DNA of 64,000 nucleotides, taken from Methylocapsa sp. S129. GTDB lineage: Bacteria > Pseudomonadota > Alphaproteobacteria > Rhizobiales > Beijerinckiaceae. The position numbers and the translations under genes were made by a program. Shown piece by piece: positions 1,339 through 23,722 of the stretch. The stretch is from positions 142,218 through 206,217 of the forward strand of contig NZ_LMUI01000060.1 in the NCBI RefSeq assembly GCF_009765995.1, read 5' to 3'. Positions within the stretch are counted from its first letter, which is position 1. Each line of letters begins with the position of its first letter. Below the pieces are notes generated by a model. The model made no database searches. It was not told the DNA's origin and saw only the letters and a list, made by a program, of their open reading frames with translations.

Positions 1339-1380
1339 CGCTTTTGGGGCCGTCCCCCGACCTATTTTTCGGAGTCCATT

Positions 1381-2676: not shown

Positions 2677-2713
2677 AGCGCCGGGCGGTCGAAGCAGTAG
2701 AGGGAACGGTTGA

Positions 2714-4432: not shown

Positions 4433-5029
4433 TCAGTTATATTCAGCCGCTGAGGCGCTGGCCCATGACCAGAAGCTGGCGGCCATGCTTCGCGCGACGA
4501 GGATATCGAATATGGCGGGGCGGTCGTAAGGCTGCTCATCGACGCGCCAGAGGTGAACGCCGATATGGGCGATGCTCGTCATCGCGGCGGCGCCGGAGGG
4601 GAAGGCTGCCGGATGCAAATCGATCATGCAGCCCTTCGCCAGCATGTCGCGGACATTGGGGCCGCTGAGCCGCAGCGCCGCGCGCCCGTCGCTTTGGTCG
4701 CTCACCGCGGCCAGTTCTGAAAGCTCCGCGAAGCTCTCTTTCTGCTCGGCGACGAGCAGCCATTGTCCGGGGCCCGCCCAGACGAACGCATGCGCCGCGT
4801 CGCGGACAGCGCGGGGCGTGGTCGGAAGTTCGAGACCGTAGCGCATCTTGACCAGCGCCGAGAGCGCGGCCTTGCGACCGCGTTGTGCCTGGATGCCGGC
4901 GACGCCAAGGCCCTCGCGGGCGACTACATTCACGCCACAGGGCCGCGCCGCATCGGATGGACTCGCCGTGAGAATGTCGGCCCAGGCGCTGTGCCGCGAC
5001 CATTTCGTTTTCAGCGACGGATCAGCCAC
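4433..5029 (-). CDS. soxG: Sarcosine oxidase gamma subunit
   Basis: SoxG is the small structural subunit of heterotetrameric sarcosine oxidase and is related to the C-terminal (GcvT-like) part of the alpha chain. I chose the GTG at 5029, which overlaps the soxA stop by eight bases and has a GGAG a few bases upstream; this gives 198 residues beginning VADPSLKTKW. Features include the WAGPGQWLL and LRLSGPNVRDMLAKGCMIDLHP blocks typical of the subunit. It is the last gene of the minus-strand operon. Upstream in-frame ATGs lie inside soxA and would add residues that do not belong to the family. Confidence 0.88.
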   Translation of the reverse strand: MADPSLKTKWSRHSAWADILTASPSDAARPCGVNVVAREGLGVAGIQAQRGRKAALSALVKMRYGLELPTTPRAVRDAAHAFVWAGPGQWLLVAEQKESFAELSELAAVSDQSDGRAALRLSGPNVRDMLAKGCMIDLHPAAFPSGAAAMTSIAHIGVHLWRVDEQPYDRPAIFDILVARSMAASFWSWASASAAEYN

Positions 5030-8012
5030 GAAGCCGCGCTCCTTCCACGTCGAGAAACAACGCGTTGCAGATTTCGACTTCCACATCGCCATTGCGAACC
5101 GGATCATAGGCGCGCACGCGCTCACCGATGCGCTCCGCGCCGCGCTTGATGAGCCCGAGGCCGATCCAATGGCCGAGATTGGGGGAATAGGCGACGGAGG
5201 TCATGTAGCCTTCGTCATTGTCCAAATCGGCCGACCGGCCGAGGCCAAGGAAATGCGCGCCGGCCCGCAGCCTCTGTGCGCGATCGACGGGCTTGAATCC
5301 TGCGAGGATCGGCCTGTCCGGCTCGACCAAGGCGGGACGGCCCGCCATGACGCGGCCGATGAAATCCTTCCTGCCGGACATCATGCGCGCGAGGCCGAGA
5401 TCGCGCGCCGTTGTCTGGCCGTTCAGCTCGCCGCCGGCGACATGGCCTTTTTCGATGCGCATGACGCCCATCGCTTCGAGGCCGTAGGGCGTGACGCCGA
5501 AAGGGCGGCCCGCCGCCATCAGCGCACGCGCCAGGGCGTCGCCATAGCCGGCGGGGACGGCGAGTTCATAGGCGCGTTCGCCGGAGAAGGAGACGCGAAA
5601 CAGCCGCGCCTCGACGCCGCCGCCCACTGAGACCATCCGCGCGGCGAGATAGGGAAAAGCGTCGTCGGAGATGTCGTGCTCCTCGTCGATCACGGCGCGC
5701 AGCAGATCGCGCGAGCGCGGCCCGGCGATCGCCATTTGCGCCCATTGTTCGCTGACCGATGCAATCTGCACGTCGAGCGTGGGCCAGAGAACCTGAAGGC
5801 AGAATTCGAGATGCTGCATGATCTTGACCGCGTTGGCGGTCGTCGTTGTCATCAGGAAATGGGTTTCGCCGAGCCGCGACGCCGTGCCGTCGTCCATGAC
5901 GAAGCCGTCTTCCCGCAGCATGACGCCATAGCGCGCCTTGCCGATGGGCAAGTTCGACCAGTTGTTGATATAAACGCGCTCGAGCAGGGTCAGCGCATCC
6001 GCGCCTTGAATGTCGATCTTGCCGAGCGTCGAGACATCGCAGACGCCGACGCCGCCGCGCACCGCGAGCGTTTCGCGATTGACGGTCGTCAGCCAATCGT
6101 TCTCGCCCGGCTGAGGATAATATTGCGCGCGGCGCCACAGGCCGGATTCGACGAAGACGGCGCCAAGCTCTTTCGACCATTGGTGCGTCGGCGCGAGACG
6201 CACGGGGCGGAAATCTTGGCCGCGATGATGCCCGGCGAGCGCGCCGATCGCCACCGGCGCATAGGGCGGGCGAAACATCGTGACGCCGGTTTCGGCGATC
6301 GTCTTGCCGGTGAGTTCGGCCATGATCGCGAGGCCTGCCAGATTGGAGGTCTTGCCCTGATCGGTGGCCATGCCGAGCGTCGTGTAGCGCTTGAGATGTT
6401 CGACCGAGCGAAAGCCCTCCTGGGCGGCGAGTTCGATGTCGCGATCGGTGACGTCGTTCTGGTAGTCGACGAACGCTTTGCCCCGGCTACCGGCGACGCG
6501 CGAGACCGGCGCGACCGCGACGGCTTCCGGATCGGTCGCCGGCGCGGGCGCGCTTTGCTTCGTCGCCAAGCCGCAATCCTGCGCGGCTTCCGCGCCGAGC
6601 TGGGCGCCGTCGAGGAGCGCCTCGCGCAGGGAAAAGCGACCGGCCGCGCTCCCGGCGACGCGCATGCCATCGGGCAGGTCTCCCGCGACAAACGCATGGA
6701 TCGCGGCGTTCCAAACAGGACGATGTCCCTGATGCGAGGCGAGGTGGATTGTCGGATTCCAGCCGTTGGAAACGGTGAGAAGATCACAAGCCAGCGTCCT
6801 GACGCTCCCATTCGCCTCGCGGATCGCCAGGCGCCGCAAGGATTTGCCGCCCGATGCGCCAAAGACGCTTGCGCCTGCGTAAAGTGGCGCGCCGAAACCC
6901 TCGCATAAAGTCCGAAGGTTGGGATCGACTTGCTCCCGGGAATCGACGACGGCGACGATCTTCACGCCCGCCGCCGCAAGATCGCGCGCCGTATTCCAGC
7001 CATCGTCGCCGGCCGTGAAGATCGCCGCTTCGCGCCCGGGCGCCACGCCAAAGCGATTGACATAGGTGCGCACTGCGCCGGCCAGCATGACGCCGGGCGT
7101 ATCGTTGCCACCGAACACGGTCGGCCGTTCGATCGCGCCGGCGGCGAGAATCGCCCGTTTGGCGACGATCCGCCAGGCGCGCTGACGCGGCTGATGCGGT
7201 GCTGGAGCCATCACATGATCGGCGACGCGCTCCAAAGCGCCGTAGACGCCGTGATCATAGACGCCAAATATCGTGGTGCGCCGCATGACGCGAATGTCGG
7301 GAAAGCTTTCGAGCTCCGCGATTGTTCGGGCGAGCCATTGCGAGGCGGGGAGGCCATCGATCTCGCGCCGCTCCGACAAAAGCCGGCCACCGAGCGCGAA
7401 ATCGTCGTCGCAGAGAATGACGCGCGCACCAGCGCGGCCTGCTGCGAGCGCGGCGGAGAGTCCAGCCGGGCCGCCGCCAATCACCAGGATGTCGCAAAAG
7501 GCGAAGGCCTTTTCATAGGTGTCAGGATCTTCCGCATTGGCGGCGCGACCAAGCCCCGCGGCGCGGCGGATCGCAGGCTCGTAAAGCCGTTCCCAGAAGC
7601 TCGCGGGCCACATGAAGGTCTTGTAGTAGAAGCCCGCCATCAACGCGGGCGCGAACAGCGCATTGATCGATAGAAGATCGAAGCCGAGGGAAGGCCAGCG
7701 GTTCTGGCTCGTCGCCTCCAGCCCGTCATAGAGTTCGGCGACGGTGGCGCGGGTGTTGGGTTCGCGCCTCGCGCCGGTGCGAAGCTCGACCAGTCCGTTC
7801 GGCTCTTCCGGGCCGGCCGTCAGCAAGCCGCGCGGGCGATGATATTTGAACGAACGCCCGATGAGGCGCGCGCCATTGGCGAGCAGCGCGGACGCGAGCG
7901 TGTCGCCGCGAAATCCGGACAAGGCCTGGCCGTCGAACCGGAACGTCAGCGGCGCGTTGCGATCGACGAGACCGATTTGGGGAAGCCGGAACGGTTGCGT
8001 TGCATTGGCCAC
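5022..8012 (-). CDS. soxA: Sarcosine oxidase alpha subunit
   Basis: The largest subunit of the heterotetrameric enzyme, which oxidises sarcosine to glycine, passes the methyl carbon to tetrahydrofolate and makes hydrogen peroxide. In order it shows a ferredoxin-like N-terminal domain (FDGQALSGFRGDTLASALL, then GRSFKYHRPRG), a dinucleotide-binding motif VIGGGPAGLSAALAAG near residue 180, a second Rossmann region, and a GcvT-like folate-binding domain over roughly the last 380 residues. The GTG at 8012, six bases after the soxD stop, gives 996 residues and matches the family start; a TTG at 8021 overlapping that stop is the alternative. An upstream ATG at 8123 would overlap soxD heavily and is unlikely. 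Confidence 0.93.
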   Translation of the reverse strand: MANATQPFRLPQIGLVDRNAPLTFRFDGQALSGFRGDTLASALLANGARLIGRSFKYHRPRGLLTAGPEEPNGLVELRTGARREPNTRATVAELYDGLEATSQNRWPSLGFDLLSINALFAPALMAGFYYKTFMWPASFWERLYEPAIRRAAGLGRAANAEDPDTYEKAFAFCDILVIGGGPAGLSAALAAGRAGARVILCDDDFALGGRLLSERREIDGLPASQWLARTIAELESFPDIRVMRRTTIFGVYDHGVYGALERVADHVMAPAPHQPRQRAWRIVAKRAILAAGAIERPTVFGGNDTPGVMLAGAVRTYVNRFGVAPGREAAIFTAGDDGWNTARDLAAAGVKIVAVVDSREQVDPNLRTLCEGFGAPLYAGASVFGASGGKSLRRLAIREANGSVRTLACDLLTVSNGWNPTIHLASHQGHRPVWNAAIHAFVAGDLPDGMRVAGSAAGRFSLREALLDGAQLGAEAAQDCGLATKQSAPAPATDPEAVAVAPVSRVAGSRGKAFVDYQNDVTDRDIELAAQEGFRSVEHLKRYTTLGMATDQGKTSNLAGLAIMAELTGKTIAETGVTMFRPPYAPVAIGALAGHHRGQDFRPVRLAPTHQWSKELGAVFVESGLWRRAQYYPQPGENDWLTTVNRETLAVRGGVGVCDVSTLGKIDIQGADALTLLERVYINNWSNLPIGKARYGVMLREDGFVMDDGTASRLGETHFLMTTTTANAVKIMQHLEFCLQVLWPTLDVQIASVSEQWAQMAIAGPRSRDLLRAVIDEEHDISDDAFPYLAARMVSVGGGVEARLFRVSFSGERAYELAVPAGYGDALARALMAAGRPFGVTPYGLEAMGVMRIEKGHVAGGELNGQTTARDLGLARMMSGRKDFIGRVMAGRPALVEPDRPILAGFKPVDRAQRLRAGAHFLGLGRSADLDNDEGYMTSVAYSPNLGHWIGLGLIKRGAERIGERVRAYDPVRNGDVEVEICNALFLDVEGARLRG

Positions 8013-8017
8013 GGCGG

Positions 8018-8284
8018 TCAACTCTGAACCAAAGGCTTGGCCGGCTCGGCCGATTCGATCCGATGCGTCCTGGTATCGCGGGTGACGACGATCCACGCAT
8101 GGCAGCCCGAACTGTGATGCCAATATTCGCGCTGGCGGCCAGCCGGATTGTCGCGCTCATAGACATATCTCGTCATCGCGGCTTCGGACATTTCGTCTGC
8201 GCCGGGCCGCTTGACGTTCGCGTCGCCAAGATAGGTGAATTCTTGAACGTCGCGGGTTCCGCAATGAGGGCAGGGCAGGCGCAT
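8018..8284 (-). CDS. soxD: Sarcosine oxidase delta subunit
   Basis: This 88-residue zinc-binding subunit shows Cys5 and Cys8 in CPHCG, then His56/57 and Cys61 in WHHSSGCHAW, which corresponds to the zinc site of characterised delta chains. It stabilises the alpha-beta-gamma-delta complex and has no redox centre. It lies 21 bases after soxB and is tightly coupled to soxA. Length and motif spacing are normal for the family. Confidence 0.93.
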   Translation of the reverse strand: MRLPCPHCGTRDVQEFTYLGDANVKRPGADEMSEAAMTRYVYERDNPAGRQREYWHHSSGCHAWIVVTRDTRTHRIESAEPAKPLVQS

Positions 8285-8305
8285 CTCACAAGACCCCGTG
8301 CGAGT

Positions 8306-9556
8306 TCAATGAAGGTTCGGCTGGGCGCCCGCGCCCTTTTCGTCGATAACATGGCCCGTCGCGAAACGATCGAGCCGATAGGCGGCGGCGACGGGATGCG
8401 ATTGGTCGCGCGCGATTAGATGGGCGAAGCACCAGCCGGAGGCGGGCGTCGCCTTGAAGCCGCCATAGCACCATCCCGCATTGAGATAGAGGCCGTGAAC
8501 CGGGGTGTGGTCGATGATCGGCGATCCATCCATCGACATATCCATGATTCCGCCCCAATGGCGCAGGACGCGGATGCGGCCGAGCCCCGGCCACAGAGCC
8601 ATGCCGGATTCCATTACGTCTTCGATCACCGGAAGATTGCCGCGCTGCGCATAGGAATTGTAGCCATCGATATCGCCGCCGAACACCAGCCCGCCCTTGT
8701 CCGATTGGCTGACATAGAAATGGCCGGCGCCGAAGGTTACGACCGTGTCGATCAGCGGCTTCAGGCCTTCTGAGACGAAGGCCTGCAGCACATGACTCTC
8801 GATTGGCAGGCGCAGGCCCGCCATCGCCGCCAGCCGCGAGGAGCTTCCCGCCACTGCGAGCGCCACTTTCCTCGCCCTGATGGGCCCGCGCGACGTCTCG
8901 ACGCCGTGGATGCCATCGGCGTCGATCGTGAGCCCGGTCACTTCGCAGTTCTGCACGATGTCCACACCGCACCGGTCGGCGGCGCGCGCATAGCCCCAGG
9001 CGACCGCGTCATGGCGAACCGAGCCGCCGCGCTTTTGCAGCAATCCGCCCTGAATCGGAAAGCGCGCGTTGTCGTAATCGAGGAACGGCAGCATTGCGCG
9101 CACCTGCTCGCGATCGAGCAATTCGGCGTCGGCCCCCGCCAGCCGCATGGCGTTGCCGCGCCTGGCGTAGGCGTCGCGCTGGGCATCGGAATGATAGAGG
9201 TTCAGCACGCCGCGCTGGCTGACCATGGCGTTGTAATTGATGTCCTGTTCGAGCCCCTCCCAGAGCTTCATCGACAACTCGTAGAAAGGCGTATTGCCCG
9301 GCAAGAGATAGTTGGAGCGAATAATCGTCGTGTTGCGCCCCACGTTTCCCGAGCCGATATGCCCCTTCTCCAGCACGACGATATTGGACAGGCCATGCTG
9401 GCTCGCCAGATAATAAGCGGTCGCCAGTCCGTGTCCGCCGCCGCCGACGATGATGACGTCATATTCGGGCCTGGGGTTCGCATCGCGCCAGACGGGTTTC
9501 CAGCCCCGGTGTCCCCTGAGCGTTTGCGCCGCGAGCGTGAAGATTGAATAGCGCAT
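8306..9556 (-). CDS. soxB: Sarcosine oxidase beta subunit
   Basis: The beta subunit (416 residues) carries FAD and the covalent FMN and is where sarcosine is oxidised. The FAD-binding motif IIVGGGGHGLATAYYLA is at 35-51. RHDAV at 181-185 holds the histidine (182) that corresponds to the covalent FMN attachment site described in other enzymes. ISAGWCYGGFK-type C-terminal text is present as NAGWCYGGFK. It is the first sox gene, and the SABATH-type methyltransferase ends 31 bases upstream, so they are probably co-transcribed. The gene order soxB-D-A-G is the usual one. Confidence 0.93.
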   Translation of the reverse strand: MRYSIFTLAAQTLRGHRGWKPVWRDANPRPEYDVIIVGGGGHGLATAYYLASQHGLSNIVVLEKGHIGSGNVGRNTTIIRSNYLLPGNTPFYELSMKLWEGLEQDINYNAMVSQRGVLNLYHSDAQRDAYARRGNAMRLAGADAELLDREQVRAMLPFLDYDNARFPIQGGLLQKRGGSVRHDAVAWGYARAADRCGVDIVQNCEVTGLTIDADGIHGVETSRGPIRARKVALAVAGSSSRLAAMAGLRLPIESHVLQAFVSEGLKPLIDTVVTFGAGHFYVSQSDKGGLVFGGDIDGYNSYAQRGNLPVIEDVMESGMALWPGLGRIRVLRHWGGIMDMSMDGSPIIDHTPVHGLYLNAGWCYGGFKATPASGWCFAHLIARDQSHPVAAAYRLDRFATGHVIDEKGAGAQPNLH

Positions 9557-9587
9557 GACGAATCCGATGGCTTTTGCGGGCGAGCGT

Positions 9588-10697
9588 CTAGCTGACCTTG
9601 GTGATTTCCATCAGGCAATGGACATAGTCCATGCGGTGGCCGTCGGGCGCCTGCGCCACATCCGCCTCATAGGCCCCGTAGAAATCATCAAGGATCGCCG
9701 CGCGCATATCAGCGGGACGGGCCGGATCGAGCGCGCCGGCGAACACCGTCTCCGACCAGGAGCGCAATGTCGGCACATAGGCCTTGGCGAAAGCCGCGGC
9801 GTCGCGATGATTGAGGTGGTCGGCGGCGTAGGGGCAGGGCGTCACGATCGTTGAGAGATGCCCAAGCCGCAATCCTGCCTTGGATACCGGGGAGTTCGCG
9901 TCGCGGAAAGGCGCGGCGAATTCGTCGGGCGTTTTATAGAACTGCTGGAAGGTCGCGTTGACATATTCGGCCTCGTTGATGCGTCCGGCAGCGAGCAGGC
10001 CGCGCCAGCGCCTTGCAAATTCGTCGAACATGTTGACCCCGACCGTGGCGCCGAGATAGCGGCCTGCTTCGTCGACGCAGAAATTGGCGAGTAGAAGCTT
10101 GCCGCCCCGGCGCAATTCCCTGGCGCGACGCAAGAGGATCGTGTCCCAATCCGCGAGCCCCTGCGCGCGGAACTGCTCGCACTCGGCGGGAGCCGCGCCG
10201 ACGGCCTGGACGTGGTCCTTGATCATGCAGGGGCGCGCGCTGATCCAATGCATCGCGGTGGCGGAGAAGCCGAAGGACAGGCTGCCATCGGGAACGATCT
10301 GCCGATAGAAGCTGGTGCCGCTGCCGAAAATGAACAGGCCGGGAATATCGGCGAGCGGTTTGTCCGCTCGCTGGCCGAGCAGGCCTTGCGTCAAGCGGAA
10401 CAGAGCGGCGAAATCGTTGTGCGGCAAATCGGTGTAGGTGATCGTGATCTGGCGATCGGGTTCGCGCGCGCGTATCGCCTCGACCATGCGGCGCATCAAG
10501 TCGATCGACGTCCCGCCATCCGCTGCGCCGAAATCGGCGATGGAAAAGGGCTGCGCATCTGCGATCGCAGGCATGCGGCCGATCGCCTCGACGACGAGAT
10601 CGCCGACCTTGTCGATCACCGCCTTCGCGCCGACCGTGTTGGAGGAATAATAGCCTGCGCCCCGCATGGCGATCTTGGTTGCGCCCGTCGTATTCAT
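9588..10697 (-). CDS. SABATH-type (plant-like) S-adenosylmethionine methyltransferase
   Basis: This 369-residue protein matches the SABATH methyltransferase family, best known from plants (salicylate, jasmonate and caffeine-pathway enzymes). Visible blocks are MRGAGYYSSNT at the start (SAM/substrate binding), FSIADFGAADGGTSIDL (the SAM motif), TYTDLPHNDFAALF, then FYRQIVPDGSLSFGFS and TAMHWIS, the counterpart of the SFY...LHWLS region. A strong ribosome site (GAGGGGAG) precedes the ATG. Family members methylate small-molecule carboxylates or ring nitrogens. Here it lies between a DUF3726 gene and soxB in one operon. A methyltransferase next to a demethylating oxidase is unusual, and its substrate is unknown. 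Confidence 0.8.
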   Translation of the reverse strand: MNTTGATKIAMRGAGYYSSNTVGAKAVIDKVGDLVVEAIGRMPAIADAQPFSIADFGAADGGTSIDLMRRMVEAIRAREPDRQITITYTDLPHNDFAALFRLTQGLLGQRADKPLADIPGLFIFGSGTSFYRQIVPDGSLSFGFSATAMHWISARPCMIKDHVQAVGAAPAECEQFRAQGLADWDTILLRRARELRRGGKLLLANFCVDEAGRYLGATVGVNMFDEFARRWRGLLAAGRINEAEYVNATFQQFYKTPDEFAAPFRDANSPVSKAGLRLGHLSTIVTPCPYAADHLNHRDAAAFAKAYVPTLRSWSETVFAGALDPARPADMRAAILDDFYGAYEADVAQAPDGHRMDYVHCLMEITKVS

Positions 10698-10778
10698 CTT
10701 GATGCTCCCCTCAGCGATGGCGACGGCTTCGGACTCGTCGTCGATGGAACTGTGACGCGGATACGCAAGCTCATATTT

Positions 10779-11426
10779 CTACTCTTCATCGACGCTGCCG
10801 CCTCCAGCGCCCATGGCGCGCGAACTCTCGCTCGCCGGCACGTTTACACGCGCGGCGAAGGAGCCGAGGGCGGTCAGGACTACGTCATCTACGATCGTGC
10901 GCCGTGGCGGCCGCGTTTCTCTCGACGGGGCCGCGCCTGGCGAAATCGTGACATCGGCGGCCGGCGTCAGCCAGGCGCCACCTGGCGCTTTCGGCATGAC
11001 GCCTTGCCGGTCGACCCACGCCGACGCCGTCGGCCAGGCGACCTCGAAACCGCCTGCGGCGCTCGGCGCGGCGAGCACGCCGACGATCCAGATGGGAAGG
11101 CCGACGTTCCTGAGATGCATGAGCGCAGCTTGCAGGATCGCAGGATCGTCGATCAGCAGCGCCGCGGTGCGCACCGGGCACAGCGTCGTCGTCGAGTCCG
11201 TTTCGGATCGATGCACTCGCCATTGTTCCGCCTGGGCCGGCGAAGGCGCCTGCATCGCTTCAGCTTTCTCGGCCAAGGCCAAAAGCGCATCCGCCCAGGG
11301 GAAGCCGCCCTGCGCCAATCGACGCGCGCCTCGTCCGATTTCCTCCGCCAGACCCCATGAGAAGCCGGCGCCGCGGCCGACTTTGGCGGCGAGGGACTCC
11401 ACTTCGTTGAGCGAAAGCTCGGTCAT
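10779..11426 (-). CDS. DUF3726 family protein
   Basis: This 215-residue protein starts MTELSLNEVESLAAKVGRG and continues with FSWGLAEEIGRGARRLA, which I recognise as the opening of the DUF3726 family, whose function is unknown. The ATG at 11426 overlaps the stop of the upstream 550-codon gene (ATGA), so translation is probably coupled. No signal peptide, membrane segment or catalytic motif is evident. Its fixed place between the unknown protein and the methyltransferase suggests an accessory role, for instance a partner or stabilising subunit of the 550-residue protein, but that is inference. Confidence 0.7.
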   Translation of the reverse strand: MTELSLNEVESLAAKVGRGAGFSWGLAEEIGRGARRLAQGGFPWADALLALAEKAEAMQAPSPAQAEQWRVHRSETDSTTTLCPVRTAALLIDDPAILQAALMHLRNVGLPIWIVGVLAAPSAAGGFEVAWPTASAWVDRQGVMPKAPGGAWLTPAADVTISPGAAPSRETRPPRRTIVDDVVLTALGSFAARVNVPASESSRAMGAGGGSVDEE

Positions 11427-13075
11427 GAGGCCGCTCCGCATTCCCGCGCGATGTCTTCCGGGAACGGCTCGCCGGCAAAAAGCGAAATGCGCAGCCAGCG
11501 GTCCGATCGCGGGTCGAAACGGCTAGCGCCGAAGAAGGCGAGCTTGCTGCGCAAAAGATCGATCGGCCGCATGCCGGCGTCGATCAGATTATCGCGAATT
11601 TCAGCATAGGGATGCCGCGCGGCGATCTGCGCGCGCCTGACGACGTGACGCCATTCGGGATGGCGCAGAAGGAAATCGGCGACGGCGATTGAAATGGGCT
11701 CCACTTCAAGCGCGCGAGAAAGCTTGGCAATGTCGCGCGCGATCGCCAAAGGCTGCTCGCGTTCGGCGCCCGGCTCGTTCAGGCGCTCGCCGAGGCGCGG
11801 CTCGAGCTTTTCGGCCGATACGTACCAGAAACGCGCATTCGCCTCTTCCGAGCTGAAATCATAGCGCCGCGTCCAGGCATAGTCTCGCGCGATCAGCGCC
11901 CTCAGCGCGCCGCAACTCATGGCGCCGTCGATGCGGAAGGATTGGCTTTCGTCGGCCCCCATGCTTTCGGCGAGGTCGTCGATCAGTTCGCCATGCGGCT
12001 CCAGGATCAAGGCGACGGTCGCCTCCTGACCCTCGAGCGAAAAATTCGCTTCGGCGAAACGATAGAGCGCGTCCCAGGGAAGGGCGGCGCCGCGGGTGAC
12101 GTCGGCTGCGATTCGCTCAAGGGTGGCGAGGTCGGCGTCGAGCGCGGCGATCGCCTCCGCCTGGCGCGTGTCGGCGGTGCGCCAGGTGCGAACCTTGCTC
12201 TGCATGGCGGCGAGGGCCGCCAGAAAGCCGGCTTGCGTGGCGCCGCTGGCCGCAGGTTGCGCGCGCACGCGGGCGAGCGCGGCTTCCCGCGCATGAAACC
12301 AATTGTGCATCAGCACGGGGTGGCGCACCAGAAATGGGGCCATGCCGAGCCCGGTGGCGTTGCCGACGCCGAGGCTGCGCTGCAGCGCCGGGTCTAGCTG
12401 CGCCGCGTGTCCTGACGCGCGTCGCGCGGCGACATGTTCGGCAAGATCGATCGTGAAGGAACGGATGAGCCAGACCGTCAGCATTTCGGCCTGGAACGGG
12501 CCGGACAATTCGGGACGTTCCGCGATCTCCTCGCGATCGGCGATGCCGAACTTGCCATTGCCGTAAACGGCGGTGGTGCGCATGAGATAGCCGACGCTCG
12601 CCAACAGCGCGGCACCCGGCTGTTCGCCTTTCGCCAGGGCGTCGACGACGGCGTCAAACAGCCTGACGCTCTTGTTGGCGCGGGCCAGCACAAGGTCGCG
12701 CGCGCAATAGCGGCCGGCTTCCTGCAACGGAGCATTCTGACGCAAGCGCGCGATCTCGTCCGCGTCGGGGACGCCGTCGTAAAGGACATAGCTCGTGTCC
12801 CAGGCTTCGGCGATGACGCGATCGGTTCGCTGCGCGTCCTCCAATGGCGTTGAGAAGGCGACGAGGCAGTAAGTTCGGCGCGGCGTCGCCACGCTGTAGA
12901 CGGCATGGCCATAGCCCGCGTCGCTTATCGCCCATTCGGCGCTCCTGACCCGCCAGCGCTCTCGCGCCGCCCTTCGCATCAGAGTTCGCAAGAAACTCAG
13001 ACGTGTCGGATGCGAAGCGCCGAGCCGTTCGAGCCGCATGACGACGTCTGGAGGTCTCAATGCGATCGCGTTCAA
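11423..13075 (-). CDS. Conserved-looking protein of unknown function, about 550 residues
   Basis: I do not recognise this protein. It is a soluble, mostly helical-looking chain with no signal peptide or membrane segment. Notable stretches are YGHAVYSVATPRRTYCLVAFS (near 55-75), the HAREAALARVRAQP region after HPVLMHNW, and SLEGQEATVALILEPHGELIDDLA. The TTG at 13075 follows the upstream dehydrogenase stop by one base; an ATG at 13039 (538 residues) is the alternative. It overlaps the DUF3726 gene by four bases. The conserved operon context and full-length open frame say it is real. Given the neighbours it could be an enzyme or a large subunit acting on the pathway substrate, with DUF3726 as partner. 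Confidence 0.7.
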   Translation of the reverse strand: MNAIALRPPDVVMRLERLGASHPTRLSFLRTLMRRAARERWRVRSAEWAISDAGYGHAVYSVATPRRTYCLVAFSTPLEDAQRTDRVIAEAWDTSYVLYDGVPDADEIARLRQNAPLQEAGRYCARDLVLARANKSVRLFDAVVDALAKGEQPGAALLASVGYLMRTTAVYGNGKFGIADREEIAERPELSGPFQAEMLTVWLIRSFTIDLAEHVAARRASGHAAQLDPALQRSLGVGNATGLGMAPFLVRHPVLMHNWFHAREAALARVRAQPAASGATQAGFLAALAAMQSKVRTWRTADTRQAEAIAALDADLATLERIAADVTRGAALPWDALYRFAEANFSLEGQEATVALILEPHGELIDDLAESMGADESQSFRIDGAMSCGALRALIARDYAWTRRYDFSSEEANARFWYVSAEKLEPRLGERLNEPGAEREQPLAIARDIAKLSRALEVEPISIAVADFLLRHPEWRHVVRRAQIAARHPYAEIRDNLIDAGMRPIDLLRSKLAFFGASRFDPRSDRWLRISLFAGEPFPEDIARECGAAS

Positions 13076-13076
13076 T

Positions 13077-14087
13077 TCAACCGACCCCGGCGAGGTTCAG
13101 CAGCGTGGCGTGCGCGGCCTCGCCGATGTCGACGCCATCCCGCTCGCTGTTCATTCTGGCGGCGCGGCGCCGGCCGCCGGGGAGGCGCCCGTTGGTCTCG
13201 GCGCCGAAAGCGGCAACGACAATCTCCAGGCGGTCGGCGAAAGCGCCGCCGGAAGAGGCATTGGGGGCGATGGCGATGAAGAACTGGCCGGTGCCTGGCG
13301 GTCCGCCGGCGGTTCCGGAAAACGGGCTCGCCACGACGCCTGGATTGGCGCCGGCGAGGCAAGCCGCGAAAACTTCAACCATCAGCGCGGCTCCGACCCC
13401 TTTGTAGCCGCCGGCCGGCGCCATCGTCCCGGTCAAGGCGGCGGCGGGATCGATGGTCGGCTTTCCCTCGGCGAACGCCCAGCCTTCCGGGATAGGCTCG
13501 CCGGCGCGCGCGCGTTTCATGACTTCGCTCTTGGCGACGACGCTGGCGCTCTGGTCGATGACGAAACGCGCCGCGCCGTTGCCGTCGGGAACGGCGAGCG
13601 ACCAGGGATTGGTGCCGAGCGCTGGTTTTCGCGCGCCCCAGGGCGCGATCGAGGCGGGCGCATTGGTGAAACCGAGCGCGACCACACCCGCCTTCGCGAG
13701 GCGCTCGGTGTGATAGCCAAGGACTCCACAATTATAGGAATTGCGGATGGCGAGGCTCGCGACGCCATTGGCCGCCGCCGCGGCGATCAGCGCGGGCAGG
13801 CCAAAGTCGATGGCGGCATGGGCGAAGCCCGAATGCGCATCGACGACGAGGCTTGCCGGCGCCGCCCTCGACAAGACCGGCAGCGCCTCGCCGACGACCT
13901 TGCCGCAGGTGAGATGCTCGCAATAGGTCGGCAGATACATCAGGCCATGCGATCGCAGGCCGTCGCGCTCGGCCGCCGCGATGCCAGCCGCCAGCGCCTC
14001 GGCCTGGCTTTCAGAGGCGCCGTGATTGCGCAAAGCCCGGGCGGCGAGCGAGGCGATCTCGGCGACGGATAAGATGTGAGCGCTCAT
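13077..14087 (-). CDS. Ldh2-family NAD(P)-dependent oxidoreductase
   Basis: This 336-residue protein belongs to the malate/L-lactate/ureidoglycolate dehydrogenase (Ldh2) family, which also contains delta1-piperideine-2-carboxylate reductase and N-methyl-amino-acid dehydrogenases. Supporting blocks are LRSHGLMYLPTYCEHL, PWGARKPALGTNPWSLAVP, the E-G-W-A-F-A-E-G-K-P-T segment and MAPAGGYKGVGAALMVEV. The usual NSNHFG motif, which carries a catalytic histidine, reads NSYNCG here, so that histidine appears to be Asn. It is the first enzyme gene after LysR and is followed one base later by the unknown protein. In this setting a cyclic imine or N-methyl amino acid substrate is plausible. Confidence 0.82.
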   Translation of the reverse strand: MSAHILSVAEIASLAARALRNHGASESQAEALAAGIAAAERDGLRSHGLMYLPTYCEHLTCGKVVGEALPVLSRAAPASLVVDAHSGFAHAAIDFGLPALIAAAAANGVASLAIRNSYNCGVLGYHTERLAKAGVVALGFTNAPASIAPWGARKPALGTNPWSLAVPDGNGAARFVIDQSASVVAKSEVMKRARAGEPIPEGWAFAEGKPTIDPAAALTGTMAPAGGYKGVGAALMVEVFAACLAGANPGVVASPFSGTAGGPPGTGQFFIAIAPNASSGGAFADRLEIVVAAFGAETNGRLPGGRRRAARMNSERDGVDIGEAAHATLLNLAGVG

Positions 14088-14120
14088 TCGCTTTGGCCTC
14101 CCTCGGATGCGACGCGCTTA

Positions 14121-15020
14121 TCAAACCGCCGCATAGCCAAATTCCTTTGCGCATTCGCGCGTCAATTCGCGAATGTAGTTCAACAGTTTGGCCGTCGCGG
14201 GCTGCAGCGCCCGGCCCTCCCTGGCGATCCAGCCGACCGTGCGGCTGACGGCGGCGTCGGCGAGCGGCAGGAAACGAAGCTCGCGGCTGCATTGCCAACG
14301 GCACAGACGGGGCAGAATCGTCACGCCGAGACCAGCCTCGACCATCGCGAGGTTCGAATTGACGTTGCTGGCGATCAGCTTCGAATTGGCGGCGAGCTTT
14401 GAAACTTCTGGCAGCCCGAGCGCGGAGACGCTGCCATTCAGGATGAGGCCGCAGCCCTCGAGTTGCGTCCATTTCAGCGGACCCTTCTTTTTCGTCAACG
14501 GGTGATCGGCCCGACAGACGAAATCCAACGGCTCGCGAAAAAGCGCTTCAAAAGTCAGTTCGGGGCGTTTGTTGGCGAGCACGCAAAGCCCTACTTCGAC
14601 GACGCCATTCTCGACCGCGTCGACGATCGCGGAGGAATCGATGTCGCGCACATGAATGTCGAAGAGCCCCTCGGCCTGCCTGACCCGCGCAATCGCCCGG
14701 GGCAAAAGCGTCACGGCGACGGACGGCACGCTGGCGATGTCGCAGCGCCCGAGGCGATCGGCGGCGAAAGTCGTCATCGCCGAGCAGGCGCGCTCGTAAT
14801 GGGCGAGCACGCCGCGCGCCTCCTCCAGCACCACGCGGCCGACATTCGACAATGCGGATTTGCGCTCGCTTTCAAACAAAGGCGCGCCAATATCGAGTTC
14901 AAGCTGCTTGAGCGTCATCGAGACGGCGGAAGGCGTGCGATGGATATGATCGGCGGCCGCGCGAATGCCGCCGGTCTCGACGACGGCGACAAAGCTGCGC
15001 AAACCCGTCAGGCTGATCAT
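14121..15020 (-). CDS. LysR-family transcriptional regulator
   Basis: This 299-residue LTTR has an N-terminal winged helix (LRSFVAVVETGGIRAAADHIHRTPSAVSMTLKQLE at about 6-40) and a C-terminal effector-binding domain typical of the family. It is divergent from the aldehyde dehydrogenase and lies 33 bases ahead of the Ldh2-type gene on the same strand, so it may be the first gene of the long operon and also control the divergent one. A perfect inverted repeat in the intergenic region (15031-15047) is its likely site. Confidence 0.88.
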   Translation of the reverse strand: MISLTGLRSFVAVVETGGIRAAADHIHRTPSAVSMTLKQLELDIGAPLFESERKSALSNVGRVVLEEARGVLAHYERACSAMTTFAADRLGRCDIASVPSVAVTLLPRAIARVRQAEGLFDIHVRDIDSSAIVDAVENGVVEVGLCVLANKRPELTFEALFREPLDFVCRADHPLTKKKGPLKWTQLEGCGLILNGSVSALGLPEVSKLAANSKLIASNVNSNLAMVEAGLGVTILPRLCRWQCSRELRFLPLADAAVSRTVGWIAREGRALQPATAKLLNYIRELTRECAKEFGYAAV

Positions 15021-15030
15021 TATCGCCTCT

Positions 15031-15047
15031 GTTCAGGCAAACTGAAC
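15031..15047. promoter_or_regulatory. Candidate LysR box
   Basis: GTTCAG and CTGAAC are perfect inverted half-sites separated by five bases, and they contain the T-N11-A pattern of LysR boxes. A further TGAAC half-site lies at 15063-15067. The element is only eleven bases upstream of the regulator start and 80 bases upstream of the aldehyde dehydrogenase start, as expected for an autoregulating LTTR that activates a divergent gene. Confidence 0.6.
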
Positions 15048-15126
15048 ATTTATCAAAATAAATGAACTTGATTGAAATTGTGCCGATTGATTAGGTGAAG
15101 TCAATGAAATTCTGGGAAGCGCGCCA

Positions 15127-16575
15127 ATGATCGCCGGACGAAATCTCATCGCGGGACTATGGAGGGAAGGGGCGAGCGAAATCGAGGACCGCAATCCCTC
15201 GGACCTTGCCGATCTTGTCGGCTTATTTTCGCAAGCGTCTCCCGCTGATGTCCATGAAGCTGTCGCCGCCGCGCGCGAGGCCCAGCCGCAATGGGCCGCG
15301 ACGGGCCTCGAGGCGCGCGCCGCCGTGCTGGACGCGATCGGCCGGGAATTGATGGCGCGCTCAAAGGAGCTCGGTGAGCTGCTATCCCGGGAGGAGGGCA
15401 AGACCCTCGCCGAGGGGGTGGGCGAGGTCTATCGCTCCGGACAGTTCTTCACTTATTTCGCCGCCGAAACGCTGCGCATTCTTGGCGAGACGGCGGATTC
15501 GACGCGGGCTGGCGTCGAGGTGCTGGTGACGCGCGAGCCGTTAGGGGTCGTCGCGGTGATTTCGCCCTGGAACTTTCCGATGGCGACGGCGTCGTGGAAA
15601 ATTGCGCCGGCGCTCGCATTCGGCAACGCCGTCGTTTGGAAGCCCGCCAATATCACGCCCGCCAGCGCCTGGGCTCTCACCGAGATCATCCACCGCCAGG
15701 CCATCCCGGCCGGCCTGTTCAATCTCGTGATGGGGCCGGGCTCGGCGATAGGGCGCGAGCTCGCGGCCAAGGCGGAAATTCAAGGCCTGAGTTTCACCGG
15801 ATCTGGCGAAGTCGGCAGCGGCATCGCCGGCGCCGCGGCGGCGCGTTTCGTCAAACTGCAACTCGAAATGGGATCGAAAAATCCGCTCGTGATCATGGAC
15901 GACGCCGATCTCGATCGCGCCGTCGATCTTGCCGTAAACGGCGCTTTCGGCGGGACGGGGCAAAAGTGCACGGCCTCGTCACGGCTCATCGTGCATCGGC
16001 CGATCCATGACGCCTTCGTCGAGCGGTTCCTTGTGAAGACCAAGGCGCTGAAAGTCGGCCATGCGCTCGGGGAAGGCACACAAATGGGGCCGGTCGTCAG
16101 CCAGGCCCAACTCGACAGCAACCTCGCCTATGTCGCTTTGGCGCAAAGCGAAGGCGGAGAACTCGCGACCGGCGGCCATCAGCTCGAGAGAGCGGAAAAG
16201 GGCTATTACATGGCCCCAACTGTCTTCCTCAATACGACCCCTCGGATGCGCGTCAATCAGGAGGAAATGTTCGGTCCGATTACTTGCGTCCTGTCTGTCG
16301 CCGACCTCGACGAGGCGATCGATGTCGCCAATGATACGCTCTATGGCCTGACGGCCGGGATCGCGACGCGTTCGCTCGCCCGGGCGAGCAAATTTCGTCG
16401 GGCCTCGCGATCGGGCTGCGTCATGGTCAACCTGCCGACGGCCGGCACCGACTATCACGTGCCGTTCGGCGGAACCCGCGCATCCAGTTACGGCCCGCGC
16501 GAACAGGGGCGCGCCGCGGTGGAATTCTACACGCAGATGAAGACCTCCTACATTTACGCGGGTCCCGCACTATGA
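15127..16575 (+). CDS. NAD(P)-dependent aldehyde dehydrogenase
   Basis: This 482-residue aldehyde dehydrogenase has VISPWNFP (144-151), WKPANITPAS, FTGSGEVG, the catalytic Glu247 in LEMGSKNP and nucleophile Cys281 in GGTGQKCTASS. The text is closest to semialdehyde dehydrogenases of the alpha-ketoglutaric semialdehyde type, but the aldehyde is not known. It is divergent from LysR and overlaps the M19 homologue by four bases (ATGA), so both are one transcript. It would oxidise an aldehyde released by the pathway of the neighbouring operon. Confidence 0.88.
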   Translation: MIAGRNLIAGLWREGASEIEDRNPSDLADLVGLFSQASPADVHEAVAAAREAQPQWAATGLEARAAVLDAIGRELMARSKELGELLSREEGKTLAEGVGEVYRSGQFFTYFAAETLRILGETADSTRAGVEVLVTREPLGVVAVISPWNFPMATASWKIAPALAFGNAVVWKPANITPASAWALTEIIHRQAIPAGLFNLVMGPGSAIGRELAAKAEIQGLSFTGSGEVGSGIAGAAAARFVKLQLEMGSKNPLVIMDDADLDRAVDLAVNGAFGGTGQKCTASSRLIVHRPIHDAFVERFLVKTKALKVGHALGEGTQMGPVVSQAQLDSNLAYVALAQSEGGELATGGHQLERAEKGYYMAPTVFLNTTPRMRVNQEEMFGPITCVLSVADLDEAIDVANDTLYGLTAGIATRSLARASKFRRASRSGCVMVNLPTAGTDYHVPFGGTRASSYGPREQGRAAVEFYTQMKTSYIYAGPAL

Positions 16576-17567
16576 CGCGGGACACCGCCGATGCGGCGAC
16601 GCTGATCGACGGGTTGCAATATTGCAAATGGTCGCGCGAAATCTTTCAACAGATGCGCGAGGGCGGCATGTCGGCCGTGCACGCCACTGTGAGCTATCAC
16701 GATGGATTTCGCGACACGGTTCGCAATCTCGTGGAATGGAACTGGCGCTTTCGCGACCACGCCGATTTGATTCTTCTGGGGCGCGATGCCGACGACATCG
16801 CCGCCGCCAAGGCGTCGGGACGGACCGCGATTTTTCTCGGCCTGCAAAACCCGATGCCGATCGAGGACGATCTCGGCCTGGTCGAGATCCTGCATGAACT
16901 CGGCATCAGATTCATGCAGATCACCTACAACAATCAGTCGCTGCTCGGCGCCGGATGGATGGAGGCGGTGGATGGCGGCGTCACGCGCATGGGGCGCGAA
17001 GTCATCGCCGAAATGAATCGGCTCGGCATGGTGATCGACATGTCGCATTCGGGCGAGCGGACGACGCTGGAGGCGATCGAATTGTCGACGCGTCCGATCG
17101 CGGTCACCCACGCCAATCCGTCGTGGTGGCGCGAGACCGGGCGCAACAAGTCGGCTGAAGTGGTGAAAGCGCTCGCCGAGACGGGCGGCATGCTCGGACT
17201 GTCGATCTATCCCCATCATTTGCGCGACGGCGGCGCGACGACCTTGCAGGATTTTTGCGCGATGGCCGCCGAAGTCGCTGTTATGATCGGCGTCGACAAT
17301 CTTGGAATCGGCTCCGACCTCTGTCAGGGTCAACCGGACAATATCGTGCAATGGATGCGCGAAGGCCGCTGGACCCGGCCCGACCGGCGCTCCGCCAGAG
17401 CCGCATTCCCTGCCCAGCCGGAGTGGTTTGGCGACAATAGAGACTTTGCGGGCCTTGCGGCGGGTCTGAAAGCGGCGGGCTTCAGCGGCGCCGACACAGC
17501 AAAAATTCTCGGCGAGAACTGGCGGAATTTTATGCGCAAAGCCTTCAAGCCAGGAGACTTGAGCTGA
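16572..17567 (+). CDS. M19 (membrane/renal dipeptidase) homologue missing metal ligands
   Basis: This 331-residue protein has the M19 fold signature but unusual key positions. The family HxD motif (as in DGHND) reads DGLQYC at 13-18, so both ligands are lost. The bridging Glu is replaced by Gln92 (GLQNP), and the LTHN histidine by Tyr119 (ITYNN). The histidines of the other site remain as DMSHSG (His159) and AVTHANPS (His180). A classical two-zinc dipeptidase is therefore unlikely. From memory, similar M19-like genes sit in the glycine betaine/dimethylglycine catabolic cluster of Pseudomonas, which would fit the sarcosine oxidase here. Its reaction is unknown. Confidence 0.8.
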   Translation: MTRDTADAATLIDGLQYCKWSREIFQQMREGGMSAVHATVSYHDGFRDTVRNLVEWNWRFRDHADLILLGRDADDIAAAKASGRTAIFLGLQNPMPIEDDLGLVEILHELGIRFMQITYNNQSLLGAGWMEAVDGGVTRMGREVIAEMNRLGMVIDMSHSGERTTLEAIELSTRPIAVTHANPSWWRETGRNKSAEVVKALAETGGMLGLSIYPHHLRDGGATTLQDFCAMAAEVAVMIGVDNLGIGSDLCQGQPDNIVQWMREGRWTRPDRRSARAAFPAQPEWFGDNRDFAGLAAGLKAAGFSGADTAKILGENWRNFMRKAFKPGDLS

Positions 17568-17639: not shown

Positions 17640-18173
17640 TCAACCTTTGACAGTGCGAAGAGGGGGCTGCGGGTCCTTCACCTCGGCGTATCGGCCTCGA
17701 CAGAATGCGAGGGGCTTCAGGGCGGTTGTAGCAAAAGCCTCGACGCGTCCCAAGAGAACTACGTGGTCCCCCGCGTCCACCCGCTCATGCACCGTGCAGT
17801 CAAACCAGGTCAGACAGTCGCTGAGCACCGGCGCGCCGGTATGGAAGATGTCGTGATCGATGTCCGCGAATTTATCGACGACCTTTGATGCGAAGAGAGA
17901 CGAGATGCGCCCCTGTTTCTCATGCAGCAGGTTGACGGCGAAGGCATCGCAGCCGCCAAACGCCGGAAAGCTGGACGCCATCTTGCTTACGCAGACAAGA
18001 ATCAAAGGCGGGTCGAGCGAAACCGACGTGAAGGAATTGGCGGTCATTCCACGGGGGTTCCCTTCGGCATCGCGCGTGGTGACGATGCTGACGCCGGTTG
18101 GGAAGGAACCGAGCGCGCGCCTCAATTCTTGGGGGTCGATATGCAGGCGATCCAACGCCGGACATGAAGCCAT
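17640..18173 (-). CDS. NAD(P)H:flavin oxidoreductase (flavin reductase domain protein)
   Basis: This 177-residue flavin reductase of the HpaC/NtaB class shows ALGSFPTGVSIVTT at 20-33, GMTANSFTSVSLDPPLILVCV and the FAVNLLHEKQ block. These proteins bind FMN or FAD and supply reduced flavin to a partner monooxygenase. The partner is almost certainly the NtaA-family protein at 20410, although the regulator gene lies between them and the two are on opposite strands. A CGGAG ribosome site precedes the ATG. It is convergent with the M19 homologue, 72 bases away. Confidence 0.85.
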   Translation of the reverse strand: MASCPALDRLHIDPQELRRALGSFPTGVSIVTTRDAEGNPRGMTANSFTSVSLDPPLILVCVSKMASSFPAFGGCDAFAVNLLHEKQGRISSLFASKVVDKFADIDHDIFHTGAPVLSDCLTWFDCTVHERVDAGDHVVLLGRVEAFATTALKPLAFCRGRYAEVKDPQPPLRTVKG

Positions 18174-18280
18174 TTGCGAACTCCGAAGCCATCGCCCACA
18201 CGATACTCCGCCAATCGAGCCGCGGCTTTCTCCGACTTGGAGGATTTGGCGAGGTCGAGCTTCCTACGTTGCAGAGCAGA

Positions 18281-20161
18281 TCATCTGCGGAGAGATCGGG
18301 CGAGCGGCGAGGACCCGCTGAGGGACGCATAGAGTCGGATCGCCAACTCGAGTGAAAACCGCTGTTCTTGCGTTCCGAATTCGATACCGAAAAGCTCGCG
18401 GACACGAGCCAATCTATAGCGCAGAGTCGTGACGTGCAGGCCCATGACATCCGCACAGGCCTGGCCGCGACAGCCGGTCCCCAAATATTTCGACAGCGTC
18501 TCCAAATAGGCCGTGCCGCGCTTAGCATCGTGCCGCACCATGGCGCCGACGCTGCTTTCAACGAAAAGTTTCACCTCACTTGTGTCCGCGGCGGCAAGGA
18601 GCTGCGGGAACGGGCCGAAGTCCTGTGCGGTTAGGGCGCCGCGTCGCCCGAATCGTCTAGCGAGCGACACGATTCGTTGGCATCGCACCCAGGCGACCGG
18701 ATAGTCGTCCAACCCTCCCCGAAGACCGACTTCGACGAGGATCGGCTCTTCGCCGAATATTCTTACCGCCTCATCAAGGATGCTGCGGATCAGCGGATCT
18801 GAGCGGTCGGTCCTTCCGGGCTGACGGGGCGGCGCGTGGCATATGATCGTGTCACCCAAAGTGACGACCCGTCCGTCCTCGTGGTGGTGCTGGACTATGC
18901 GAGCGACGGACCGATGCGCGTCGATCGACAAGCCTTGCTTCGCTTGGGCGTCGCCCGTCGAGCTGATGGTTATCAGCCGCGCCGCAAGCGACGGGTCAAT
19001 TCCAAGACGACGCGCGCGCGCCGCTACATCTTCTGCGTCGCGCCAGCGGCCGTCGAAAATCTCCTTAAATAGATCCGTGAGCGTCCGAGTTTCGTTCTGA
19101 AAGCGAATATAGCTACGCATCATCTGGACACTGAGCGCAAACTTCGCGCTCTCCAACATCAGATGGTCCAACTCTTCCAAGATCTCCGATTGCGGGAACA
19201 TTATAAGCGCGCCTACAGCCTCGCCATCGACAGAGAGGGGCTCAATGTTGGCAGTGATCCTGAGGCGTTTATGCCCATCGTCGAGAAAGAGATCGCGCGG
19301 CCCCTCTCGAGACACATCGATGGCGAAGCGCGCGGCATGCATGAATTGTTTTCCGAAGCCCGCTCGGACGGCCGCCTGCCAGGCCGCGTCGTTATAGAGC
19401 TCTGGCCGCGGGGAACGGCCGGCAACAATGAGGCTCGCGGAAAAGTCGATTGCGATCACCGGATTGGGGAAGAGCTGGCTGATCATCGCCGTAGCCGAAC
19501 TCACAGACCCGTCGGAAAGCACTTGGCTCAATAGCCTCGAATGCACGGCCAACGCCGTCTGAAGGCGCTCGGTCAGCAGGCGGTCGGCTCGCAGACGGTG
19601 AGATTTCTCAACCGCAATGACGCCCAGGTGAACGATGGAGCTGAGGAACGTCAGCTCTTCCTCACCGACAGCAACGACCTCCCTGGATTGCACGGTGAGG
19701 ACCATCGAACGACCTTCCGCATCGGCGCAGCCCATCGGCAGCACAACGACGGTGTGATAGCCGCGTTCAACGGCCTCCTTTCGGTAGCCCGGAAACTCCT
19801 TAGCCAGGAAAGCATCGGCGATGACGACGGGTTCGTTGCGGCTCAGCGCCACGAGCGTCGGGCTGGTGGCAAGATTCCAACGCCCCTCCAGCCTGGTTTC
19901 CAGAAGCGTTGGATCATATCGCGTCATGACCTGAGCGTGGCCGTTCTTCTGGTCGATGCTCATGACCGAGCCCATCACCCAGGGCGGATTTTGGCAGGCT
20001 GCGTAGACGAGTTGTTGGAGCGTGAGGTCGAGATCGCCGCTGGAGCTGATGAGACGCGCGACGTCACGTAGCGTGCGAAATTGCGAAGCGGCGTCCAAGG
20101 CGACCTGAACCTTATGGGGACCTGTTTGGTCATAGCCGAGTCGGCGCAAGGGAAACTCCAT
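18281..20161 (-). CDS. GAF-domain / PucR-type (CdaR-like) transcriptional activator
   Basis: This 626-residue regulator has an N-terminal GAF-like sensor (about 25-185), a central GGDEF-like or CdaR-type region (about 400-500) and a C-terminal PucR-type helix-turn-helix (YLGTGCRGQACADVMGLHVTTLRYRLARV). Such proteins respond to small metabolites and activate purine, sugar-acid or aromatic catabolism. It is divergent from the flavin monooxygenase and the ABC importer, and a perfect 10-3-10 inverted repeat lies 26 bases upstream of its start. It probably controls the reductase, the monooxygenase and the importer together. Confidence 0.82.
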   Translation of the reverse strand: MEFPLRRLGYDQTGPHKVQVALDAASQFRTLRDVARLISSSGDLDLTLQQLVYAACQNPPWVMGSVMSIDQKNGHAQVMTRYDPTLLETRLEGRWNLATSPTLVALSRNEPVVIADAFLAKEFPGYRKEAVERGYHTVVVLPMGCADAEGRSMVLTVQSREVVAVGEEELTFLSSIVHLGVIAVEKSHRLRADRLLTERLQTALAVHSRLLSQVLSDGSVSSATAMISQLFPNPVIAIDFSASLIVAGRSPRPELYNDAAWQAAVRAGFGKQFMHAARFAIDVSREGPRDLFLDDGHKRLRITANIEPLSVDGEAVGALIMFPQSEILEELDHLMLESAKFALSVQMMRSYIRFQNETRTLTDLFKEIFDGRWRDAEDVAARARRLGIDPSLAARLITISSTGDAQAKQGLSIDAHRSVARIVQHHHEDGRVVTLGDTIICHAPPRQPGRTDRSDPLIRSILDEAVRIFGEEPILVEVGLRGGLDDYPVAWVRCQRIVSLARRFGRRGALTAQDFGPFPQLLAAADTSEVKLFVESSVGAMVRHDAKRGTAYLETLSKYLGTGCRGQACADVMGLHVTTLRYRLARVRELFGIEFGTQEQRFSLELAIRLYASLSGSSPLARSLRR

Positions 20162-20186
20162 CGCAAAAGAGGATCGCTGCCAGTTA

Positions 20187-20209
20187 TCTTCCTATGAATC
20201 ATAGGAAGA
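20187..20209. promoter_or_regulatory. Perfect 10-3-10 inverted repeat, candidate operator
   Basis: TCTTCCTATG and CATAGGAAGA flank the spacer AAT. The repeat lies between the divergent regulator (start 20161) and the monooxygenase (start 20410). No T-tract follows on either strand, so an operator is more likely than a terminator. Its place close to the regulator start suggests autoregulation. Confidence 0.65.
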
Positions 20210-20409
20210 CGCCACCCGCATGCCTTCATAGGCTCAACCGTCTTGTGTCTCAGGCGCCGCTGCCTGCTGTCCGAAAGTCTCCATGCCAACTGACATTCAC
20301 AAAATTACCTCGGAAGTCTCAGGGCGGCGGACCATCAGCGGCGGATCGTCGCTCAAAAATAACGCTGGCTTGCGCACTGCGGGCCGGTCTTCGGAGGAAT
20401 TTTGAAGCG

Positions 20410-23707: not shown

Positions 23708-23722
23708 GGGGGTCATCGCCTG

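Follow-up and report, generated by a model that had tools for sequence, protein, structure and literature searches.

The genes at 4433-17567 of the window (the whole 64,000-nt stretch of Methylocapsa sp. S129 DNA analyzed here) form an operon of probably known kind: we put at about 0.55 the probability that it is a soil-lineage variant of the operon for catabolism of homarine (N-methylpicolinate). The form found here, which also carries a SABATH methyltransferase gene, is probably new. The genes are as follows.

4433..5029, minus strand: soxG, sarcosine oxidase gamma-type subunit (frame open from GTG 5125, likely start GTG 5029)
5022..8021, minus strand: soxA, alpha subunit (frame open from 8123; likely start TTG 8021 or GTG 8012)
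8018..8284, minus strand: soxD, delta-type subunit of 88 aa, read by eye from its place between soxB and soxA and its CPHCG start
8306..9556, minus strand: soxB, beta subunit, assigned to the general SoxB subfamily (TIGR01373, 702 bits against a cut-off of 529)
9588..10697, minus strand: SABATH-family SAM-dependent methyltransferase (PF03492, Methyltransf_7, 92.3 bits against a cut-off of 29.8)
10779..11441, minus strand: DUF3726 protein (PF12525, 42.0 bits against a cut-off of 22.1)
11423..13075, minus strand: 550-residue protein of no family (TTG start; alternatives TTG 13060 and ATG 13039)
13077..14087, minus strand: Ldh2-family NAD(P)-dependent reductase (PF02615, Ldh_2, E 1.9e-84)
14121..15020, minus strand: LysR-type regulator (Pfam)
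15127..16575, plus strand: aldehyde dehydrogenase (ALDH; Aldedh, E 2.6e-156)
16572..17567, plus strand: M19-like hydrolase without the HxD metal motif (PF01244, Peptidase_M19, E 7.7e-69)

Gene positions and order are as the sequence-only reading gave them, Pfam and NCBIfam bear out its named families, the SABATH assignment of the methyltransferase among them, and the 88-aa soxD completes the sox set. SoxA scores 1395 bits against a cut-off of 1164 with NCBIfam TIGR01372 and carries the Pfam domains GCV_T (E 1.1e-63), SO_alpha_A3, and Fer2_4; SoxB has a Pfam DAO match and 1vrq_B as its closest PDB entry (E 2.1e-131); SoxG matches PF04268 (SoxG, E 3.1e-14) and reaches 98.4 bits with TIGR01375, under the cut-off of 143.95. 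The minus-strand genes had been described as overlapping or lying within 81 bases of each other and as divergent from the ALDH and M19-like genes, and so they do. The lysR and ldh2 genes are 33 nt apart, ldh2 and the gene for the 550-residue protein 1 nt, and the latter overlaps the DUF3726 gene; the largest gap, 81 nt, separates DUF3726 from SABATH, with 31 nt from SABATH to soxB and 21 nt from soxB to soxD. Given a soxA start at TTG 8021, soxD and soxA overlap, and given a soxG start at GTG 5029, soxA and soxG share 8 nt. On the other side, lysR and the ALDH gene diverge with 106 nt between them, and the ALDH and M19 genes share 4 nt. All minus-strand terminator-like sites in the operon fall inside the 550-residue gene, with none in any intergenic gap. 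GC content is 65.0% over 4433-17567 and 62.9% over the whole window. Two other groups of genes lie nearby: an asparaginase-like protein (by reading), an amidase, and a carbon-nitrogen hydrolase stand in a row at 340-3652, and a likely separate catabolic cluster with a flavin reductase, a PucR/GAF regulator, a luciferase-like monooxygenase, and a polyamine-type ABC transporter occupies 17640-25610 beside the operon.

The core of the operon, by which we mean ALDH, the M19-like protein, the 550-residue protein, DUF3726, Ldh2, and LysR, was followed in two sets of loci. Among 289 alphaproteobacterial genomes (the class sample), 39 carry a relative of the 550-residue protein; wider stretches were taken at 37 places, and 36 loci were counted after the fragmented L048 was left out. 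At that place (G077:C43) the relative is broken by many stop codons. A contig scan of the database gave at least 585 confirmed stretches related to the 550-residue protein, of which 80 were kept. Identity limits were at least 45% for M19, 50% for ALDH and Ldh2, and 30% for LysR. DUF3726 directly follows the 550-residue protein in 33 of 36 class-sample and 78 of 80 database loci (80 of at least 585, here and in the counts that follow), and M19 lies within 6 kb in 30/36 and 69/80; ALDH does so in 12/36 and 43/80 and Ldh2 in 11/36 and 17/80, while LysR lies within 8 kb in 5/36 and 38/80. Because of these counts we treat M19, the 550-residue protein, and DUF3726 as a firm unit, often joined by ALDH, Ldh2, and LysR. 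A more distant Ldh2 (37-44% identity) fills the place at some loci, and no ALDH is labelled in L195-L197.

The core neighborhood is conserved far past chance, and the SABATH and sox parts are optional. The proposed search for the neighborhood in other genomes thus has a divided outcome, as the core recurs widely, whereas SABATH (within 6 kb in 3/36 and 5/80 loci) and soxB (within 10 kb in 2/36 and 2/80, the 80 again being from at least 585) appear in few; the whole gene set is not one conserved route. Annotated plasmid records of Ruegeria sp. TM1040, Phaeobacter, Shinella, Aminobacter, and Aliiroseovarius hold the full set LysR-ALDH-M19-unknown-DUF3726-Ldh2, and going by record names the core is found in Rhodobacterales and in SAR116 contigs (L119, L152). 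Small AT-rich genomes of 1.2-1.6 Mb with stretches of 30-36% GC also have it, a size and composition that would suit SAR11. The Phaeobacter inhibens DSM 17395 copy of LysR-ALDH-M19-unknown-DUF3726 (L071:8537-20316) has annotated DMSP demethylase and methylthioacryloyl-CoA hydratase genes as its neighbors. What does hold of the original proposal is a coherent catabolic operon, kept in other genomes and tied to the oxidation of N-methyl amino acids. Of the 39 class-sample genomes with the 550-residue protein, 37 have a SoxB-like gene (E <= 1e-60), as do 77 of the 250 without it (Fisher p 6e-15, a value that ignores kinship and genome size). The two genomes that have the 550-residue protein and no SoxB-like gene are 84% and 68% complete.

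An operon for homarine catabolism, homABCDER, with five structural genes and a regulator, was reportedly described by Ferrer-Gonzalez et al. in 2026 (Nat Microbiol 11:1531); it is said to occur in Rhodobacterales, SAR11, and SAR116 and to have N-methylglutamate as an intermediate. We tie the core to homarine, as a strong lead, since it agrees with this description in how many genes it has, in the bacteria that carry it, and in its link to sox/mgd. Structural genes and LysR are conserved together (the core pair and M19 firmly, the rest variably), and SoxB-like genes co-occur with them. To call the route undescribed was therefore probably wrong for the core, which appears to match the pathway reported in 2026. 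The suggestion that it ends in sarcosine or a similar N-methyl amino acid survives in its second half; N-methylglutamate or a similar acid is the likelier product. Passages of a 2026 paper (PMC13390433) give Mgd, a relative of Sox, a part in homarine catabolism, and passages of PMC12817926 report that Ruegeria pomeroyi draws down homarine fast; the hom genes are unnamed in the passages of PMC12817926, PMC9038784, and PMC9723723 that were read.

Two further findings favor homarine. The closest solved relative of the Ldh2 protein, which reaches no cut-off in the NCBIfam scan, is delta1-piperideine-2-carboxylate reductase (1wtj, E 2.6e-50), an enzyme whose cyclic imine substrate has the same carbon skeleton as reduced picolinate. 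Of 118 loci with no SABATH gene adjacent, 46 have BCCT or betaine-type ABC transporter genes within 8 kb, which agrees with an N-methylated substrate. Against homarine, no betaine transporter lies within 8 kb of the S129 operon, and Ldh2 (at least 50% identity) and ALDH stand within 6 kb in only the minority or middling shares of loci counted above. The S129 Sox genes also weigh against it, in their kinship, in their lack of a clade, and in having a second soxA in the genome.

These features bear on whether the Sox enzyme belongs to the pathway. It could be the strain's ordinary sarcosine oxidase, standing behind the operon by chance and outside the route, a reading that we take seriously and still consider less probable than membership. 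In its favor, soxB lies within 10 kb of the core in only the two class-sample and two database loci mentioned, and a genome of the same genus (G312, L199) has the whole core and SABATH with no sox. In a tree built from 23 SoxB proteins, the nine that are cluster-adjacent need 6 changes against a shuffled mean of 7.4, with 102 of 500 shuffles as low, and the starred branches force 4. Cluster-adjacent Sox as a special clade finds no support in this tree. The S129 SoxB shares 82% identity with its counterpart in G283, a genome of the family that lacks the 550-residue protein; the S129 sox genes appear to belong to the general subfamily, and specificity for the operon is not supported by the tree. 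The SoxB tree instead suggests that a general Sox set has come to stand beside the core several times. Chance placement is harder to square with the spacing, soxB being only 31 nt behind SABATH in S129, with the near-constant presence of SoxB-like genes (37/39) beside the 550-residue protein, and with adjacency that repeats in unrelated records. Among nine annotated close-core regions, soxBDAG lies within 12 kb of the core in four (L070, L187, L188, L194) and not in L069, L071, L072, L189, or L193; L187 holds soxBDAG, the core, betaine ABC transporter genes, and purU in one stretch. The S129 genome moreover has one other full-length soxA, 47% identical, and since it lies near a gene read as L-serine dehydratase, it is the better candidate for sarcosine.

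The SABATH gene is a true partner of the operon. Homologues occur in 9 of the 289 class-sample genomes, eight of them among the 39 with the 550-residue protein and one among the 250 without (p 5e-7). A family sample of 298 genomes contains 18 with a homologue, of which eight have a close one (E < 1e-90, a limit chosen after viewing the list) and ten have distant ones only. A close SABATH is present in all seven family genomes with a close 550-residue protein (at least 58% identity) and in 1 of the 291 others; in that one, G414, the contig stops 19 nt past the SABATH match, where the 550-residue gene would come next. The gene follows DUF3726 in S129, in L199, in Mesorhizobium (L073-L077), and at a contig end (L200), and elsewhere stands between Ldh2 and the 550-residue gene (L195-L197), divergent from M19 (L198), or after Ldh2 (L060, L061, L067); in L110 a SABATH fragment precedes M19. 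This repeated joining at differing positions argues for a functional tie, which looks new. Four genomes (G028, G034, G096, G109) have a SABATH copy by itself, away from the core, and the neighborhoods of the standalone copies L167-L171 offer no functional context.

We infer that some lineages have gained SABATH as an extra step; in its simplest form, the enzyme would methylate a pyridine carboxylate ahead of its entry into the route. Tentatively, and with somewhat lower odds than even, the enzyme might instead methylate the carboxylate of a pathway side product, turning it into something harmless or volatile, and leave the ring nitrogen of the substrate alone. Characterized SABATH enzymes mostly make methyl esters, and the closest solved relative, 5f2k (E 5e-25), is a fatty acid O-methyltransferase. 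Plant carboxyl methyltransferases of this family bind the carboxylate with a Gln/Trp pair. At the positions that we take to match this pair, Trp is retained in the S129 and Mesorhizobium rows and is Tyr in L060, L061, L067, L167, L170, and L171, but the presumed Gln is another residue in every row covering that site; otherwise nothing direct speaks against carboxylate methylation.

Methylation of the ring nitrogen could have a further consequence. None of the 14 loci that carry SABATH has a BCCT or betaine ABC gene within 8 kb, whereas 46 of the 118 remaining loci do (p 0.002). With the 14 taken as four lineages, p is 0.30 and the contrast loses its statistical support; at most it suggests a substrate entering unmethylated, methylated inside by SABATH, with the methyl recovered by Sox. 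In the full scheme, which we regard as distinctly improbable, SABATH would N-methylate a pyridine carboxylate with SAM, making the ring an easily attacked pyridinium, the new-fold pair would open it, and Sox would return the methyl to tetrahydrofolate, from which it could be recycled to SAM. Were this true, each turn would spend and regain one methyl group, and a pathway for a marine osmolyte would have been adapted by soil bacteria to unmethylated acids. Catabolism by way of a borrowed methyl group would then follow a logic that is new.

The pair at the center of the route is formed by the 550-residue protein and DUF3726. The former has no Pfam or NCBIfam family match, and a 50-row profile finds no relative among PDB sequences (best E 0.81). 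PDB profile searches with its alignment A2 and with alignment A3 likewise return no relative. Its AlphaFold2 model (50 rows) is confident (pLDDT 90.7, pTM 0.92), and Foldseek returns nothing for it at E <= 0.001 among the solved structures of the PDB (best 0.27); by this model, the protein may have a fold that is known but unsolved. It is our proposed ring-opening enzyme. In four loci (L069, L094, L120, L150) it forms a single chain with DUF3726; alignment A4, which combined fused and unfused chains, was discarded, as MAFFT set the DUF3726 rows on the wrong half.

A remote kinship of DUF3726 to Ldh2 is suggested by several comparisons. The first 25 Foldseek rows for its model (pLDDT 91.2) are all Ldh2-type, though the best E is 0.033, and hhalign aligns its profile with the N-terminus of same-operon Ldh2 proteins over 48 columns (probability 64%, E 6.5e-5). 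The S129 protein has no PF02615 match, PF12525 alone appearing at E <= 0.1. The archaeon Natrinema has, next after its 550-residue relative, a gene for a 317-residue protein. It scores 36.2 bits with Ldh_2 (E 4.8e-9), slightly short of the 38.8-bit cut-off, and weakly (13.7 bits) with the custom DUF3726 profile; the partner of the relative in S. meliloti reaches E 0.025 with Ldh_2, and that in Neorhizobium has no match. Profiles and model together are suggestive of a reduced (degenerate) Ldh2-family protein turned subunit of the 550-residue enzyme. A literature search found no publication on DUF3726. The region in Natrinema versiforme, a haloarchaeon (L191:9038-17288), holds ALDH, the 550-residue relative, the Ldh2/DUF3726-like protein, and a BCCT transporter. 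In a paralogous module at L190:11944-22327 (S. meliloti pSymB), L192, and L203-L205, a 550-residue relative of 31-34% identity is accompanied by M19, a partner gene, and genes for an IclR regulator and a polyamine-type ABC transporter. The S. meliloti version also includes two RidA genes, a semialdehyde dehydrogenase, and an aminotransferase.

M19 dipeptidases have a two-metal site with an HxD motif and a bridging Glu. The closest PDB entry to the M19-like protein is 2i5g, labelled 'amidohydrolase' (E 3.3e-65). At the positions where we assume these residues to lie, HxD is replaced in 70 of 71 aligned rows (all rows without a gap there), and the bridging Glu gives way to Gln in 70 rows and to Thr in one; the remaining His, His, and Asp are retained in all 71. 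Because HxD and the bridging Glu are replaced, the alignment makes an ordinary dipeptidase unlikely.

Our proposal for the substrate, the order of steps, and the catalytic roles, that of SABATH included, would then run as follows. LysR would sense a pathway compound, and the 550-residue protein with its DUF3726 partner would open or dearomatize the ring of N-methylpyridinium-2-carboxylate. The M19-like hydrolase, ALDH, and the Ldh2 reductase might take the ring product through a semialdehyde and through reduction of a C=N or C=C bond to N-methylglutamate or a comparable N-methyl amino acid, from which SoxBDAG would take off the N-methyl group as methylene-tetrahydrofolate; where present, SABATH would methylate the pyridine carboxylate ahead of entry. 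That the core degrades some other N-methylated or N-heterocyclic acid (e.g., proline or hydroxyproline betaine, or another pyridine carboxylate), its likeness to the homarine route being coincidental, is unlikely. In its favor, the models that give ALDH its highest scores are those for 2,5-dioxovalerate / alpha-ketoglutaric semialdehyde dehydrogenases, which catalyze the final step of hydroxyproline routes, and Ldh2 relatives work on cyclic imino acids. Against it, the ALDH scores fall below the NCBIfam cut-offs (490 bits against 750, 489 against 770), and the core at the loci surveyed has no Rieske demethylase, epimerase, or proline enzyme as a constant member.

If the core is the homarine pathway, that pathway is not marine alone and is tied to a methyltransferase family best known from plants. 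The 550-residue protein is widespread (at least 585 related stretches; 39 of 289 alphaproteobacterial genomes), and its confident model without a match to a solved fold makes its chemistry a testable question. DUF3726 as a reduced Ldh2 relative would give a first handle on that family.

Several known systems invite comparison. With heterotetrameric sarcosine oxidase, the S129 SoxBDAG shares the four subunits in their usual order, with soxA and soxB above NCBIfam cut-offs; it differs in being joined to the tail of the operon, in a soxG under the cut-off, and in a substrate that is predicted. The S. meliloti pSymB module (L190) resembles S129 in a row made of a 31%-identical 550-residue relative, a 242-residue partner, and a 41%-identical M19; unlike S129, it has IclR, a polyamine-type ABC transporter, an aminotransferase, a semialdehyde dehydrogenase, and RidA, with no Ldh2 or Sox. 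Trigonelline degradation by tgnABCDE likewise opens the ring of an N-methylpyridinium carboxylate and uses an aldehyde dehydrogenase, as is proposed here, whereas the core is without a flavin monooxygenase gene and its proposed ring-opener is without a known fold. The closest likeness is to homABCDER, compared by its reported features: six genes including one regulator, the same kinds of bacteria, and a link to a Sox-type N-methylglutamate dehydrogenase. From that operon the one in S129 differs in having no betaine transporter within 8 kb and in its addition of SABATH and soxBDAG.
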